Below, in pieces: positions 24,350 through 32,239 of a stretch of 64,000 nt of DNA. The DNA comes from Geothrix sp. 21YS21S-2. GTDB taxonomy: Bacteria; Acidobacteriota; Holophagae; Holophagales; Holophagaceae. Numbering within the stretch: position 1 is the first letter of the stretch; every line of letters starts with the position of its first letter. Both the position numbers and the translations under genes were made by a program. A model generated the notes under the pieces. It saw only the letters and a list, made by a program, of their open reading frames with translations. It was not told the origin of the DNA and ran no database searches. The stretch covers positions 1,708,001-1,772,000 of the forward strand of contig NZ_CP132910.1 in the NCBI RefSeq assembly GCF_030846775.1. Reading direction: 5' to 3'.

Positions 24350-25090
24350 TCACTTCGTGGCCGGGTCGATCCGTTTCCGGGTCGTCGGCGTCATGGCCCG
24401 GCTGACGGTCAGTTCCACCCGGGGCGCGACCAGCACCTTGATCCTTCCCGTGGCCAGGGGCCGGAACCCCCTGACCATTTCGGGGCGCAGGAGGATGTGG
24501 CGCTGGATGCGCAGCATGCCTTCCTCGGGGAACGCGTCCTCCACATCGGAAAGCGTGGTCCAGCGGGTCAGGTACCTGTTCAGGCCCCGGAACGCCCAGA
24601 CCCGGTCCTGGCTGAGCTCGAAATGGGTCACGTGGCTCAATTCCATGAAGATCTCCCCTTCCCCCGCAAGGATCGGAAACCGCGGGAGCGTGGGGAGAAG
24701 GCTGCGCAACTCGGAGGGGCTGAGGCGCCGGACCAGGCGCTCCCGGACCCGCTGGAGGCACTTGAACAGGCGTTCCTCGAAAACGGGCTTCAGGAGGTAG
24801 TCCACCGCCGAGAGTTCGAAGGCCCGGACCGCGTATTCCGAAAAGGCCGTCACGAATACGACCGGGGGGGGATTCCGCGCGTCGGCCAGGACCTCCATGC
24901 AATTGGGTCCCGGCATCTGGATGTCGAGGAAGATCACGTCAGCCTCGGCGGGCCCCTGGAGCCACTCCAGGAGGGCCAGGCCATTCCCGAGGTTGCCGAC
25001 CACTTCGCAGCCGGCCTCCTCGAGGAGCCGCGTCATTCGTTCCCGGGCCAAAGGTTCATCATCCACGACCAAGGCATTCAGACGTCGCAT
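24350..25090 (-). CDS. LytTR-family response regulator
   Basis: A 246-aa transcription regulator. The receiver domain (about 1-120) has the acidic pair VVDDEP, phospho-acceptor Asp56 in IFLDIQMPG and Lys103 in YLLKP. The LytTR DNA-binding domain (about 145-235) has HFELSQDRVWAFRGLNRYL and the terminal MLRIQRHILLRPEMVRGF signature. LytTR proteins bind two direct repeats in an elongated beta fold. The kinase gene ends 12 bases upstream, so they form one unit. Two matching repeat pairs lie in the divergent promoter at 26435-26490, the likely targets. After Asp56 the motif reads IQMPGPN, an ordinary receiver. Confidence 0.92.
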   Translation of the reverse strand: MRRLNALVVDDEPLARERMTRLLEEAGCEVVGNLGNGLALLEWLQGPAEADVIFLDIQMPGPNCMEVLADARNPPPVVFVTAFSEYAVRAFELSAVDYLLKPVFEERLFKCLQRVRERLVRRLSPSELRSLLPTLPRFPILAGEGEIFMELSHVTHFELSQDRVWAFRGLNRYLTRWTTLSDVEDAFPEEGMLRIQRHILLRPEMVRGFRPLATGRIKVLVAPRVELTVSRAMTPTTRKRIDPATK

Positions 25091-25102: not shown

Positions 25103-26107
25103 CTAGAGGATTTTAAGTTCGATCCGGGCGAGGGTGCCGCCTTCGGAGGCTCCCAGCGAGAACTGCGCCTCGTCCCCGTAGGCAAGCGCCAGGCGGGCCC
25201 TGAGGTTCTTCACGCCGACGCCCTGGCTTTGCCGTTTCAGGAGGAAGGGCTCACCGGAATTCCAGATCTGGAAGGTGACCAGGCCGTCCGCCCCCTGCGC
25301 CCGGACGATCAGGTCGCCGCCCTCGAGACTCGGGGAAATCCCGTGCTTGATGGCGTTCTCCACGAGCGGTTGCAGAAGGAGGGGCGGGATTTCCAGGGTA
25401 TCCAGGCGGTCGTCCCACTCCCAGGCCACCCGGAGCCGGCTTCCCAGGCGCATGGATTCGATGGCCAGATAGTCCGTCACGAGGCTGCGCTCCTCGCCAA
25501 GGGGGAAGGTCGCCTGTTCCGAGGCCCGCAGGATCCGCCGCAGGAGGTCCGAAAGGTGATGGATGGCCCGCTCCGCCGACACGGGGTCCTTGTGGACCAG
25601 CTCCGCCAACCCGTTCAGTGCGTTGAAAAGCACATGGGGATGGATCTGGCTCTGGAGGAGCCGCGTCTTGGCGATCTGGGCTTCGGTCATCGAGGCTTCT
25701 CGAAGTTCTTCGGAACGGGCCCGGGCGGCGATGAGACCTCCCACGACCATCAGGGCCGGCCCCACCAGGGACGTGTAGAGGAGGACGACCTTGCGGAAAT
25801 TGAAATCGAATCGGCCATTGGCAAGCATCCAGGCATCAGGGAACGGGAGCGCCGCGGCCACCAGTTCGCAACCGGCAAGGGAGAGCAGAAGCCCCAGGAT
25901 GAAGGCCCAGGGAGTCCGGAACCGCTGCGTCAGGAGCCACGGCAGGGGAGCGAGGAAAACGAACGTCACGACGTGCGTGAAGGGGGAGATGACCGCGTTC
26001 CCCCACAACCAGGGATTGCCGAGCCTTCCGTTCAGGCCGTGTCCGACGAGAACGGCGAGGACCCACAGGAGGTAGCAGGCCAGGATCGAAACCCTGCTCT
26101 TCCACAT
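25103..26107 (-). CDS. LytS/AgrC-like sensor histidine kinase
   Basis: A 334-aa membrane kinase of the His_kinase (PF06580) type. Four hydrophobic segments occupy the first 130 residues (near 7-24, 40-62, 65-88 and 106-127). The cytoplasmic part has the phospho-acceptor His about 158 in QIHPHVLFNALNG, the N-box LLQPLVENAIKHGI and the G-box GVGVKNLRARL. It pairs with the LytTR regulator directly downstream. ATG 26107 is chosen because the longer frame from ATG 26239 starts with Ser/Pro codons ending mostly in A, unlike this genome, and overlaps the better-supported peptide gene. Neither ATG has a good Shine-Dalgarno, so the start is unsure. Kinases of this architecture often sense peptides. 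Confidence 0.85.
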   Translation of the reverse strand: MWKSRVSILACYLLWVLAVLVGHGLNGRLGNPWLWGNAVISPFTHVVTFVFLAPLPWLLTQRFRTPWAFILGLLLSLAGCELVAAALPFPDAWMLANGRFDFNFRKVVLLYTSLVGPALMVVGGLIAARARSEELREASMTEAQIAKTRLLQSQIHPHVLFNALNGLAELVHKDPVSAERAIHHLSDLLRRILRASEQATFPLGEERSLVTDYLAIESMRLGSRLRVAWEWDDRLDTLEIPPLLLQPLVENAIKHGISPSLEGGDLIVRAQGADGLVTFQIWNSGEPFLLKRQSQGVGVKNLRARLALAYGDEAQFSLGASEGGTLARIELKIL

Positions 26108-26180
26108 CGGGAAGTAGGCGATCCGGCCGGCCCCCGCGGCCCCGAATCCATAGGGGACCAGGTCCGCGGGCCCGATGGGC

Positions 26181-26360
26181 TCAGTCCAGCCAATCGGTGT
26201 GGGTGAGGGTCGTGGTGATGGTGATGCTGGCCTCTCCATGGTTAATCGCCGAGCGCCCCCCCCGGGTGTCCTGCTTCAAAGGGGACTTGCCTGCCAGGCT
26301 TCCACTTGCGGCACTGGCGGGCTGGAGGGATTCCTTCCGAAAGGGGAATGGGCTGGTCAT
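26181..26360 (-). CDS. candidate RiPP precursor peptide, Thr-rich, cysteine-free
   Basis: A 59-aa frame found by reading the minus strand upstream of the kinase. TTGGAG lies at ideal spacing (five bases) before ATG 26360, and a TATAAA box is 60 bases upstream. The peptide starts MTSPFPFRKESLQ. It continues through a Ser/Ala/Gly/Lys-rich middle that includes SAASGSLAGKSP and TRGGRSAINHG, and ends with EASITITTTLTHTDWLD, where seven of 16 residues after Glu are Ser or Thr. There is no Cys, so lanthionine rings are impossible without partners. The last 20 codons are almost all C/G-ending, whereas the overlapping kinase frame there is mostly A-ending. FRKESLQ recalls the K-x-[ST]-L box of class I lanthipeptide leaders (inference). 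Location across the promoter from lanB makes it the probable dehydratase substrate. Confidence 0.65.
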   Translation of the reverse strand: MTSPFPFRKESLQPASAASGSLAGKSPLKQDTRGGRSAINHGEASITITTTLTHTDWLD

Positions 26361-26419
26361 GGGAACTCCAAGGTCGCGTCACCGGACGCAACCTTGGTGT
26401 AACCTCCCACCCACCCGGC

Positions 26420-26450
26420 TTTATAGAAATTCCCATGAACGGAATGTAAA
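26420..26450 (-). promoter_or_regulatory. possible promoter of the peptide-kinase-regulator operon
   Basis: TTTACA (26450-26445) and TATAAA (26425-26420), read on the minus strand, are separated by 19 bases. The -10 is good; the long spacer suits an activated promoter. One LytTR box lies inside the spacer. Confidence 0.45.
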
Positions 26451-26490
26451 CCACGGCCGAACGGTTGGGCGCAAAAAAAACACCGTTCAC
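26435..26490. promoter_or_regulatory. divergent LytTR operator (two direct-repeat pairs)
   Basis: The published LytTR consensus is [TA][AC][CA]GTTN[AG][TG] twice, with a 12-13 bp spacer. On the minus strand ACCGTTCGG (26465-26457) and TCCGTTCAT (26443-26435) both match at 9/9 with a 13-bp spacer. On the plus strand ACGGTTGGG (26461-26469) and ACCGTTCAC (26482-26490) each match at 8/9 with a 12-bp spacer. The two pairs overlap at the centre and point to the peptide operon and lanB respectively. The inner boxes also share downstream sequence (14 of 17 positions, CCGTTCA to ATTYC). Confidence 0.6.
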
Positions 26491-26560: not shown

Positions 26561-29500
26561 ATGCGCCCACCCGCCCTTTGCCATGCTTCAACCCGGTTCC
26601 TGCTCCGGAGCCCCGCCCTGCCCCTCGAGGTGCTTCAGGCCTGGGCGCAGGACGGCCCGTCCTCCGGGGACGGGGAGGAGGCGCGTGAGGCCCTCCGCCG
26701 GAGGATGCGGTCGAGCCTGGAGAAGAACGCCGTCCTGGAAGCCTTGGCGGTCGCGTCGCCGGACCTTTCATCCCGGATCCAGGCCTGGGCCGACGGCGGC
26801 CTGCGGGGCAAGGAGGCCCGGAACCTCGACCATGGCCTGGTGAAGTACCTGGCCCGCATGGCCTCCCGATGCACGCCCTTCGGTCTTTTCGCGTCCGTCT
26901 CCCTCGGCGGGTGGGGCGATGGCAATTCCCTGGCCCTGGGGCCATGGGAGGAGGCAAGGCGCCATGCGCGGCTGGATTGGGGGGTGGTGGGGCGGCTGCA
27001 GGCCCTTCTGGAGGACATGCCGCAGGCCGTCGCGTCCGCAAGCTACCGGCCCAACACGACCCTGCACCCCTTCGGGGGCTGGTACCGGTATCTGAAGGTC
27101 TCGCACGAGGGCGGCAGGGGGGCCGCCTACCACCTCGAGGCGGTCGAACAGACCCGCCCGCTGCGGTGGGTGATCGACCGTTCCGGCACGGGCGCCCGGC
27201 TCGGGGAGCTGGCCGGGGAGCTGGCCCGTTTCATGGGAACCCGGGAAGACGAAGCCAGGGCGTACCTGGATCTCCTGGCCGAATCCCAGGTCCTGGCCGG
27301 GGATCTGCAGCCCCCCCTCACCCAGGGCGATCCCATCGACCGGCTGTTGGAGCGGTCCGGGGAGGGTCCCCGGCCCGGCCCCTGGAAGGCAGCCCTGGAG
27401 GCGGTCCGGAACGGGATCGGAGAGCTGGGCCGGACACCCGTCGGGAGCCACCCGGAAGGGTACCGGCAGGTGGTGGCGCCGCTGGAGGAGCTCGGACTGC
27501 CGGACCTGCAGGATCCCCTGCAGGTCGACGTGTTCCGCCCCGCGCCGGGCCTCATGCTCTCGGGGGCGGTCCGCGCCGCGCTGGAGGCGGGCATCGAAAC
27601 CCTCCGCCGGGTGACGCCCGCAAGGACCGGAGGCCCCATGGCGCGGTTCCGGAGCGCCTTCCGGGAGCGCTATGGGGATCGGTGGGTTCCACTCCTGGAG
27701 GTCCTGGACGAGGAGTCGGGCATCGGCTTCGACGGGGAGGTCCCGGTGGCCTCCCCCCTGCTCGAGGGGCTCGGGATCCCCACCGGGGAGGGCCCGTCGC
27801 CTCCCCCCTATCCCGAAAGGGACCGGTTCCTCGCGGGCCGGCTGCAGCGGCTGGACGGGGCCCGGGTCCTGGACCTGGGCCCGGAGGACCTGGACGCCTT
27901 GGCGCCGGGGGACCTTCCGGCCCTGCCGGCCTCCTTCGCCGCCATGGCCGTCCTGGCCGCCTCCTCCATGGACGCGCTGGACGGGGGGGATTTCCAGTTC
28001 TTCATGGAAGGCTATTCGGGGCCCAGCTCGGCGCGGTTGCTGGGGCGTTTCGCCCCCGGCGAACCCGGACTCGAGGCCGCGCTGGTGGAGGACCTTCGCC
28101 GGGAGGAGGCGCTCAGGCCGGACGCGGTCTTCGCCGAAGTGGTCCACAACCCCGGCGGCCGCCTGGGCAATGTCCTGGTCCGCCCCCGGTTGAGGCCGTT
28201 CGAGATTCCGGTCCTCGCGACCCCAGGCGTCCCCTGGTCCCATGCCATCCTGCTTTCGGACCTGCGGGTGCGGGTCGTTTCCGACCGCGCGGTGCTGGCG
28301 TCGGCGAGACTGGGCAAGGAAGTGATTCCCCGCCTCTCCACCGCCCACAATTTCAGGCTCGGCCCCCCCGCCTACCGGTTCCTGGCGCACCTCCAGGACC
28401 AGGAATGTCCGCCGGGAGGGTGGTCATGGGGCACCCTGGCGGACCTGCCGTTCCTGCCCAGGGTGACCTGCGGGCGCCACGTGCTGAGCAAGGCGCGGTG
28501 GCGGCTGTCGGGCCCTGAACTGCGGGCCGCTTTGGCCGGAGCCTCCCGGAGCGCCTGCGAAGCCTTCGGGCGCCTGCGCAGGCAGCGCGGCCTTCCCCGG
28601 CACGTGGTGCTCGCCGACGCGGACAACGCCCTCCCCTTCGACCTCGATCAGGAGCTCTGGGTGGAGACGCTCTGCCACCTTGTGGCGGGGCGGGAGGCCT
28701 TCACCCTCACGGAGTGCTTTCCCCCCTTCGGTCAGGGCCTGGCGTCGGCCCCCGAGGGAACCTTCGCCCACGAGCTGGTGGTCCCGTTCGAATCCGAGCC
28801 GCCGCCGCCGCCCAGCCCCGCCCGCCTCCTGCAGTCGCTCGAGGCGCCCCAGGTCCGCTCCTTCCTGCCGGGGTCCGAATGGCTCTTCCTGAAGGTCTAC
28901 TGCGGGCATGCCGCGGCCGACCGGATCCTGGCCGAGCTCGCCCCGGCGTTTCGCGCGGCGAAGGAGGAGGGGTGGTGGGACCAGTGGTTCTTCCTGCGAT
29001 ACGGGGACCCGGGCGATCACCTCAGGTTGCGGTTCCATGGGGCTCCGGGCCTGCTGCTCGGCGTATGGCTGCCGCGCCTTTCGGAGCACCTCGAGCGGCT
29101 CCGGGGCCAGGGGCTGCTCTGGAAGGTCCAGGTCGACACCTACGAGCCGGAACAGGCCCGCTACGGAGGACCCGAAGGCCTTCGCCTGGCGGAGGCCTGG
29201 TTCCATGAGGACAGCCAGGCGGTACTGGATTCCATCCTTGCGGGGGATGACCACGCGACGCGGTGGCAGAGGGGGCTGGCCGAGGTCGACCGGATCTGGA
29301 CCGGCCTCGGGCTGGACCTCCAGGCCAGGAAGGCCCTGGCCGTGAATTCACGAATCGCCTTCCGGAAGGAATTCGGCGACCCGGGAGCGGCCGGGACGGG
29401 GAAGACCTTCCGAAGGTTCAGGGAGGCCCTGGAGACGCGGGTCCCCGCGCCGGAAGGCCCCGCCGCGGATCCCGTGAGCCCCGCGCTCCTGGCCCTGAGG

Positions 29501-29731
29501 GAGGCCGGGGCCCGGGGCCAGCTGCAGGGGACGATCCAGGACCTGGCTTCGAGCCTCTCCCACATGCACCTCAATCGCCTTCTCCGAAGCCACCAGCGTG
29601 CGCAGGAATGGGTGCTCATGGAATTCCTCGCCCGGTTGTACGATTCCGCCCAGGCGAAAGAACGGCACCGCGGGGAAAGGAAAGGCCTGGGCGCCGCCCT
29701 CCGGCTTCCTGGATCCCCGGACCCGGACTGA
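26561..29731 (+). CDS. full-length lantibiotic dehydratase (LanB)
   Basis: A 1056-aa enzyme of the class I lanthipeptide dehydratase family. The N-terminal glutamylation domain (about 1-740) shows the family motif MASRCTPFGLFASVSLG near residues 100-116. The C-terminal SpaB-type elimination domain (about 760-1040) has EWLFLKVYCG and WFFLRYGDPGDHLRLRFHG. Known LanBs attach glutamate from glutamyl-tRNA to Ser/Thr and then eliminate it to give dehydroalanine or dehydrobutyrine. Both halves are joined and complete, unlike split thiopeptide enzymes. ATG 26561 is preceded by GGGAAG; an upstream TTG would lie inside the operator. No LanC cyclase, protease or exporter gene is adjacent. The divergent peptide and LytTR genes are its likely partners. 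Confidence 0.93.
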   Translation: MRPPALCHASTRFLLRSPALPLEVLQAWAQDGPSSGDGEEAREALRRRMRSSLEKNAVLEALAVASPDLSSRIQAWADGGLRGKEARNLDHGLVKYLARMASRCTPFGLFASVSLGGWGDGNSLALGPWEEARRHARLDWGVVGRLQALLEDMPQAVASASYRPNTTLHPFGGWYRYLKVSHEGGRGAAYHLEAVEQTRPLRWVIDRSGTGARLGELAGELARFMGTREDEARAYLDLLAESQVLAGDLQPPLTQGDPIDRLLERSGEGPRPGPWKAALEAVRNGIGELGRTPVGSHPEGYRQVVAPLEELGLPDLQDPLQVDVFRPAPGLMLSGAVRAALEAGIETLRRVTPARTGGPMARFRSAFRERYGDRWVPLLEVLDEESGIGFDGEVPVASPLLEGLGIPTGEGPSPPPYPERDRFLAGRLQRLDGARVLDLGPEDLDALAPGDLPALPASFAAMAVLAASSMDALDGGDFQFFMEGYSGPSSARLLGRFAPGEPGLEAALVEDLRREEALRPDAVFAEVVHNPGGRLGNVLVRPRLRPFEIPVLATPGVPWSHAILLSDLRVRVVSDRAVLASARLGKEVIPRLSTAHNFRLGPPAYRFLAHLQDQECPPGGWSWGTLADLPFLPRVTCGRHVLSKARWRLSGPELRAALAGASRSACEAFGRLRRQRGLPRHVVLADADNALPFDLDQELWVETLCHLVAGREAFTLTECFPPFGQGLASAPEGTFAHELVVPFESEPPPPPSPARLLQSLEAPQVRSFLPGSEWLFLKVYCGHAAADRILAELAPAFRAAKEEGWWDQWFFLRYGDPGDHLRLRFHGAPGLLLGVWLPRLSEHLERLRGQGLLWKVQVDTYEPEQARYGGPEGLRLAEAWFHEDSQAVLDSILAGDDHATRWQRGLAEVDRIWTGLGLDLQARKALAVNSRIAFRKEFGDPGAAGTGKTFRRFREALETRVPAPEGPAADPVSPALLALREAGARGQLQGTIQDLASSLSHMHLNRLLRSHQRAQEWVLMEFLARLYDSAQAKERHRGERKGLGAALRLPGSPDPD

Positions 29732-30231: not shown

Positions 30232-30324
<93 letters not shown>

Positions 30325-30634: not shown

Positions 30635-32239
30635 ATGCCCCGACCGCCCCTCACCCTTGCCGCCCTCGCCCTCTGCTCCACCCTTCCGGCCCAGGAGGCG
30701 TCCTTCATCGGCTCCCCGGAGCAGCTGCTGATCCAGGAGCTCAAGCCCGGCCTGGGCCTGGGCCGGGAGGACGCGGTGCGGGTCCGCAGCATCGTGCCGG
30801 ACCCCCTCACCCAGGGGCGCGACGCCCGCATCCTCCAGTACTACAAAGGCGTCAAGGTCTTCGGCGGCGAGGGCATCCTCCATCTCTCGGGCCCCCGGAC
30901 CCGGTCGGTCACGGACGCCTTCGTGAAGGACCTGGACCTGGACACCAACCCGGGCGTGCCCCCGGCGGAGGCCCTGGCCGTGGCCATGGCGGCGCTTGCC
31001 CCCAGGGGGCGCTGCCGGGTCCCGCCCACCACCGAGCTGGTGGTGGCGAGGCTCGCCGCCGGGGATGTCCTGGCCTACCGCGTCCACCTGGAAGTGGAGA
31101 ACGGGGCGAGGGAGACGGCCCACGTGGATTTCCTGGTGGACGCCCGCACCTCGGGCATCCTCAAGCGGTGGTCCTCCCTGCACACCGGCAGGGCCGCGAC
31201 CGGCACCGGGATCTCCCAGTACAACGGCACCGTGGCCCTCAACACCACGGTGCGGGCCAAGGGCGGCGGCTTCGAACTGCGGGACTGGACCCGGGGCAGG
31301 ACGGGGAACACGACGATCAACCTCGACCACAGGACCGGGGACGACGACGGGACGATCTTCACGAGCACCACCAACACCTGGGGGGACGGCCGGAACTACG
31401 AGGGGGGCGCCACGGCGGGCGCCAGCGGGGAGACCACGGCGGTGGACGCCGCCTACGGCCTGCAGGTCACCTGGGACTACTTCGCCAGGATCCTGGGCCG
31501 CAAGGGCCTCGACGACAAGGGCACGGCCGTGACCATGCGGGTGCACTACGACAGCGACTACGACAACGCGTTCTGGGGCGACACCTGCATGTGCGTGACC
31601 CTGGGCGACGGCCGCTATTTCAAGAACCTGGCCTCCCTGGACGTGGTCGCGCACGAGCTCAGCCACGGCTTCTGCTCCAGCACCGCGCACCTCGAGTACT
31701 TCGGCGAGAGCGGCGGCCTCAACGAAGCCAACTCGGACATCAACGCGGCCCTCATCGAGTTCTACGCCCGCGGGGGCTCGGGCGACCTCATCGGGAACTG
31801 GGGCGGGAACTGGACCATCGGGGAGTCGGTGGTCCGGTCCAGCCATCCCCAGCCGCTGCGCTTCATGTACAAACCCAGCAAGGACGGCGCCAGCCCCGAC
31901 GCCTGGTCACCGGAGCTCCAGTTCATGGACGTGCACGAGAGTTCGGGCCCGATGAACCGGTGCTTCTTCTTCCTGAGCCAGGGGGCCAGTTCCAACCCGA
32001 AATCCGACTTCTACACCTGCGCCCTTCCCAAGGGGATGGAAGGCCTCGGCAACGACCGCGCGGGGCGGATCTGGAACCGGGCCATGGTCCACTACCTCAC
32101 CTCCACCAGCGGCTACAAGGAGGCCAGGGAGGCCTGCATCACGTCCGCCAGGGATCTGTACGGCGCGGGCGGACCCGAGGAGAAGGCCGTGTGGGACGCC
32201 TTCCACGGCATCAGCCTCGGCCCCGCATGGCCCCGGTGA
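30635..32239 (+). CDS. secreted M4 (thermolysin-like) metalloprotease
   Basis: An extracellular zinc protease of 534 aa. A short signal peptide (RPPLTLAALALCSTLPAQ) precedes an FTP/PepSY-type propeptide (about 30-180). The catalytic domain has the zinc motif VAHELSHGF near residue 340 and GGLNEANSD with the third ligand Glu about 25 residues later. It ends with the helical M4 C-terminal domain (SGPMNRCFFFLSQGA; AGRIWNRAMVHYLTS). All catalytic residues are present. GGAGG lies just before ATG 30635. It has its own promoter and is separated from the RiPP locus by a tRNA and terminator, so it is probably independent, although M4-like proteases can act on small peptides. Confidence 0.93.
   Translation: MPRPPLTLAALALCSTLPAQEASFIGSPEQLLIQELKPGLGLGREDAVRVRSIVPDPLTQGRDARILQYYKGVKVFGGEGILHLSGPRTRSVTDAFVKDLDLDTNPGVPPAEALAVAMAALAPRGRCRVPPTTELVVARLAAGDVLAYRVHLEVENGARETAHVDFLVDARTSGILKRWSSLHTGRAATGTGISQYNGTVALNTTVRAKGGGFELRDWTRGRTGNTTINLDHRTGDDDGTIFTSTTNTWGDGRNYEGGATAGASGETTAVDAAYGLQVTWDYFARILGRKGLDDKGTAVTMRVHYDSDYDNAFWGDTCMCVTLGDGRYFKNLASLDVVAHELSHGFCSSTAHLEYFGESGGLNEANSDINAALIEFYARGGSGDLIGNWGGNWTIGESVVRSSHPQPLRFMYKPSKDGASPDAWSPELQFMDVHESSGPMNRCFFFLSQGASSNPKSDFYTCALPKGMEGLGNDRAGRIWNRAMVHYLTSTSGYKEAREACITSARDLYGAGGPEEKAVWDAFHGISLGPAWPR

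Follow-up and report, generated by a model that had tools for sequence, protein, structure and literature searches.

What does a LanB dehydratase, an enzyme familiar chiefly for carrying out one half of lanthionine formation, act on when the gene divergent from it encodes a peptide without cysteine in its tail? The question is raised by the window analyzed here, a stretch of 64,000 nucleotides from Geothrix sp. 21YS21S-2, for which the earlier note had proposed an unannotated, Thr-rich, Cys-free LanB precursor encoded by a 59-codon minus-strand gene preceded by TTGGAG. We consider it likely that this gene encodes a linear dehydrobutyrine RiPP precursor modified by LanB only and controlled by its own two-component system. 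The reading of peptide and lanB in the earlier note is supported; the note overlooked the two-component system and the operator that complete the module. Such a peptide gene would be overlooked by standard annotation. The features of the module are the following.

24350-25090, minus strand: LytTR response regulator (PF00072 and PF04397), in 23 of 23 loci.
25103-26239, minus strand: membrane histidine kinase (PF06580) with four hydrophobic segments, in 23 of 23 loci.
26181-26360, minus strand: precursor peptide gene, 59 aa, MTSPFPFRKESLQPASAASGSLAGKSPLKQDTRGGRSAINHGEASITITTTLTHTDWLD, with homologues in 30 of 77 family genomes and protein-like substitutions.
26196-26228, minus strand: Thr-rich putative core SITITTTLTHT, without Cys, from the composition across 31 homologues.
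26322-26342, minus strand: putative leader recognition motif FRKESLQ, with F7, K9, E10, S11 and Q13 invariant in a 15-member alignment.
26366-26371, minus strand: Shine-Dalgarno sequence TTGGAG, read from the sequence and kept as CTGGGAG/CTTGGAG in homologues.
26368-26397, minus strand: 5'-leader hairpin CCAAGGT-T-GCGTC-CGGT-GACGC-G-ACCTTGG, with a conserved stem.
26435-26443, minus strand: LytTR-type site TCCGTTCAT on the peptide side, which fits the consensus and is conserved at -83.
26457-26465, minus strand: LytTR-type site ACCGTTCGG, 22 bp from TCCGTTCAT, which fits the consensus.
26482-26490, plus strand: third, lanB-facing LytTR-type site ACCGTTCAC, with 8 of 9 consensus letters and its position kept in homologues.
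26561-29731, plus strand: lanB, a full-length class I dehydratase (PF04738, E 1.5e-145, and PF14028, E 1e-56).

Homologues were searched among 77 Holophagaceae genomes and a wider set of 396 Acidobacteriota genomes in two stages, with the single peptide sequence first and then with a profile from 15 sequences. Across the 77 genomes, the search with the single sequence gave one clear match (E 7e-10), a homologue from a congeneric species that is likewise encoded divergently from lanB; matches in further genera were weaker. The profile gave convincing matches in 30 of the 77 genomes, with best E-values of 4e-12 to 2e-27; another match, in G041 (E 0.003), contains a stop and was discarded. Most of the 30 genomes are Geothrix, including cultured species, and their peptide is divergent from lanB; the peptide-bearing bacteria, more than 30, come from soil and sediment. 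Outside the Holophagaceae, the profile found no match among the 396 genomes of the phylum. PF04738 was detected in 36 of the 77 family genomes: lanB is present in all 30 peptide-bearing genomes and the peptide in none of the 41 lanB-less genomes (Fisher p = 9e-16, uncorrected for shared ancestry). The precursor is genetically tied to LanB, as befits a LanB-dependent RiPP in the broad sense. Homologous frames stand beside orthologous lanB genes in 30 or more genomes, and these, together with the substitutions in the peptide frame, support the proposed precursor.

Six genomes have lanB without a profile match. G001 and G005 contain a LanC-type lanB, G035 has lanB at a contig start with the peptide side missing from the contig, and in G037 a distinct lanB lies where a contig ends. 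In G002 and G003, a diverged peptide subtype (MKxxLVLRKETLHLL...TTIWTTPW) occupies the same position, with the same kinase and regulator. At the lanB of locus L117, no peptide was found within the 400 bp before the contig end. G052 has two copies of the module (L051 and L104) with diverged peptides.

The 3' end of the peptide gene and the start of the kinase ORF share 59 nt, with the kinase in the +1 frame. Third-position GC in this overlap is 0.80 in the peptide frame versus 0.42 in the kinase frame, in agreement with the C/G bias that had been noticed in the C-terminal codons of the peptide and not in the overlapping frame. Among related homologues, substitutions at the three codon positions of the peptide frame are 0.14, 0.15 and 0.30 in the N-terminal part and 0.37, 0.25 and 0.48 in the overlap, so that in the kinase frame it is the middle position that varies most there. 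In the last 45 nt, 11 disjoint pairs show a synonymous excess in the peptide frame (z 2.7), with values of 0.4 in the kinase frame and -1.8 in the third frame. As the core is variable, selection acting on the overlap is of no more than moderate strength; kinase homology starts past the overlap. An excess of substitutions sparing the kinase frame, the outcome that the earlier note had set against the peptide, was not seen; the peptide frame is the one favoured. Long spurious ORFs are abundant in high-GC genomes, which would speak for a chance ORF over the kinase gene; this explanation, whose probability is practically nil, is refuted by the homologues beside lanB in 30 genomes, with E-values down to 1e-27, and by a synonymous excess in the peptide frame only.

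In nearly all homologues the kinase-frame start codon lies ~44-59 nt before the peptide stop, inside the peptide frame, and this arrangement makes translational coupling of peptide and kinase likely. The hairpin is very stable, lies directly before the peptide start and buries part of TTGGAG; its stem has 89% of cells paired in 24 aligned sequences, with weak covariation, and the inner stem is conserved in ~30 homologues. Both the overlap and the hairpin at the ribosome-binding site would suit a small ORF that serves mainly as a leader for translational coupling of the kinase, instead of as a LanB substrate. We regard this as very improbable, because conservation peaks at the FRKES(I/L)Q motif near the N-terminus, a good distance away from the overlap, co-occurrence with lanB is perfect, and kinase orthologues exist without the small ORF.

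Gene order is invariant, with lanB on one side and peptide, kinase and LytTR regulator diverging from it on the other. Across 23 loci of 15-17 kb each, the common protein families are LanB, the PF06580 kinase and the LytTR regulator, plus the peptide; no transporter, protease, LanC or methyltransferase is common to the 23 loci. An M4 metallopeptidase gene of the window (30635-32239) was considered as leader protease and rejected, as it is not conserved with the module. A tRNA-Ser (GCT) is located at 30232-30324 on the minus strand, between lanB and the M4 peptidase gene.

The listed lanB ORF opens with a TTG at 26465, and homology starts close to the ATG at 26561. LanB carries both the glutamylation and the elimination domain of class I lanthipeptide dehydratases. 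Aligned with NisB, it keeps Y80, R83, R87, T89, R784, R786, E823 and R826, and it retains an HMxxNR motif which, matched by motif, we take to be the H961 region of NisB. Essential or important roles have been described for Y80, R83, R87 and H961 of NisB (PMC4341554). The active sites for both half-reactions are intact as judged by these residues, and the presence of an intact elimination domain speaks against an enzyme of the PEARL kind, which only adds amino acids. Some further LanB-related loci were also observed. In L107 (G026:C1:855000-870000), peptide, kinase and regulator are intact beside a LanB remnant of ~150-220 residues, a decaying module. L043 (G000:C1:1058124-1059029), remote from other loci, has a gene resembling only the LanB elimination domain (SpaB_C-like). 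L126 and L127 (G037:C127 and G061:C93) show a more distant LanB type, with 34-35% identity, at contig ends and with no kinase or peptide nearby.

The tail of the 59-aa peptide is SITITTTLTHTDWLD. Across 31 homologues, the last 14 residues contain a mean of 5.2 Ser/Thr, and no Cys occurs in 1013 residues beyond position 20, which bears out a Cys-free peptide with a Ser/Thr-rich tail; the core Cys needed for (Me)Lan rings is absent from all 31. LanC (PF05147) was found in seven of the 77 genomes, in six beside a separate, LanC-paired lanB and in G002 at a distance, and the PF05147 search had no match at any module locus. The absence of LanC from module loci, and from most module genomes, favours a linear dehydropeptide. 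Dehydro residues are electrophilic, and Lys, His or Arg precedes the core in many homologues, so that rings of a non-thioether kind might form by addition of Lys, His or another amine to dehydrobutyrine, or through an unlinked enzyme. This cyclisation seems improbable, as the module is not accompanied by a conserved third enzyme and the positions of the nucleophiles ahead of the core vary.

A linear product, the reading that we prefer, would also fit the history of the enzyme. In a quick tree of 46 LanBs, the 31 LanBs from modules fell into a single clade (SH-aLRT 93), whose sister is formed by LanC-paired LanBs of Geothrix. Since the module clade is nested among LanC-paired LanBs, cyclase and cysteines were probably lost, and the simplest reading of this tree is that LanC and core Cys disappeared together, once. 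In the control LanC-type locus L046, from the same family, the precursors are rich in Cys and have a KETI leader, and Cys-rich precursors with a KET leader also occur at other Acidobacteriota LanB loci; the KET(I/L) motif in precursors of LanC-type loci resembles the leader of the module peptide. This KES/KET likeness was judged by eye, and the NCBIfam class I leader models NF038153 and NF038158 did not match the precursor. Precursors at the sister LanC-type loci L109 and L110 were searched and not found. The genome of the window also has a second, LanC-paired lanB locus (L042, G000:C1:3159000-3172000) with a possible precursor showing a KLSFKAESI leader.

The interval between lanB and the peptide gene contains LytTR-type sites at fixed places, ~131, 109 and 83 nt upstream of the peptide start. 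Matches to the LytTR consensus (TA)(AC)(CA)GTTN(AG)(TG) (PMC8826819) number 71 across 31 loci in this interval, versus 1.8 expected. The site pair of the window is spaced by 22 bp, that is 9 + 13, and spacers of 11-13 bp are typical of LytTR repeats (PMC6193735). The TATAAA box suggested as a promoter element is not conserved in homologues, where the LytTR-type sites and the hairpin at the ribosome-binding site are conserved instead. A sigma-54 promoter reading of a conserved ATGGAAAG...TTGG block was also rejected: the spacing does not fit and the block is absent from the window. Of 18 module genomes, 17 have a single occurrence of the strict operator pattern, and four genomes lacking the module have none; with three mismatches allowed, few extra matches appeared, none of them recurrent at other genes. 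As the operator is found only at the module locus in the tested genomes, the regulator seems, from its sites, to be dedicated to this locus.

Since the genes for peptide, kinase and LytTR regulator follow one another on the same strand behind LytTR repeats, the locus has the layout of a pheromone two-component system, the same order as in peptide quorum-sensing operons, and the kinase consists almost entirely of membrane segments. The peptide could on these grounds be a dedicated pheromone of the ComC/AgrD kind, activated by LanB modification and received by the kinase, with community signalling as output and not an effector function. Three further loci, L162 (G016), L163 (G015) and L164 (the second locus of G026), keep kinase and regulator with one operator site and have neither lanB nor peptide, with a kinase identity of 59%; they could be receiver-only loci, as eavesdroppers would have, or hold a kinase with another input. 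The joint absence of lanB and peptide where kinase and regulator persist indicates that the peptide follows lanB and not the kinase. Against the pheromone stand the operator restricted to the module in the tested genomes, the lack of visible output genes beyond the module, and exporter and protease that are not linked. We give this explanation a real but less than even chance.

For the LanB-only linear peptide that we favour, the following course is suggested by the gene content. LanB would bind the FRKES(I/L)Q leader and, with Glu-tRNA as donor, glutamylate Ser/Thr in the ITITTTLT-type core at the C-terminus; its elimination of the glutamate would then yield dehydrobutyrines. With both Cys and LanC lacking, the product would stay linear, or at least free of lanthionine, and rich in dehydrobutyrine. 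Membrane kinase and LytTR regulator would be co-transcribed with the peptide, and the regulator would bind the 22-bp-spaced sites and activate both lanB and the peptide-kinase-regulator operon. The product, or the envelope stress that it causes, probably feeds back on the kinase, making production self-amplifying; export by housekeeping systems and leader removal would depend on unlinked enzymes. That a linear polydehydrobutyrine peptide made by a cyclase-free class I LanB is itself the autoinducer of the dedicated LytTR system, in a new RiPP class, is a tentative proposal, about which we are rather doubtful.

Among known systems, class I lanthipeptides of the nisin type resemble the module in that their LanB is full length and of the glutamyl-tRNA type and that their short precursor combines a KE(S/T)(I/L) leader motif with a C-terminus rich in Ser/Thr, and nisin also in its two-component control; however, the module lacks LanC and core Cys, and hence (methyl)lanthionine, and no ABC transporter, protease or immunity genes are linked to it. 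As both of these defining features, LanC and core Cys, are missing, the module should not be filed as a lanthipeptide. A linear, dehydrobutyrine-rich peptide is the product type of linaridins such as cypemycin, although these are dehydrated by other enzymes, which are not part of the module; LanB, kinase and regulator are the only enzymes and regulators common to the 23 loci. Goadsporin, thiopeptides and pyritides share LanB-type dehydration without lanthionine rings, but they use split LanB proteins together with azole or [4+2] cyclase enzymes, whereas the full-length LanB of the module stands alone. As in ComCDE and AgrBDCA, the peptide gene directly precedes the genes of a membrane-bound kinase and of a LytTR regulator, and the promoter of the operon has LytTR repeats that fit the consensus; the module differs in its PF06580-type kinase, in the inclusion of LanB, in having neither AgrB nor ComAB, and in its hosts, Gram-negative Acidobacteriota.

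No match was found in the open literature for Geothrix lanthipeptides or for a LanB that stands alone with a precursor lacking Cys. The large lanthipeptide survey of Walker et al. took LanC as its starting point and did not count precursors free of Cys among the lanthipeptides (PMC7268733), so that systems like this module would be missed. The genomes probably encode a linear, dehydrated peptide of a new kind that induces its own production; it would be a LanB-dependent RiPP, and would form a new class if the dehydration chemistry is borne out. The compact module offers a testable linear dehydropeptide system with a built-in promoter. Across the family, a LanB lineage appears to have lost its cyclase and the matching cysteines while keeping a Thr-rich substrate. 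If the product were also the autoinducer, it would be a dehydropeptide signal made by LanB, from a Gram-negative phylum whose RiPP chemistry is little known.
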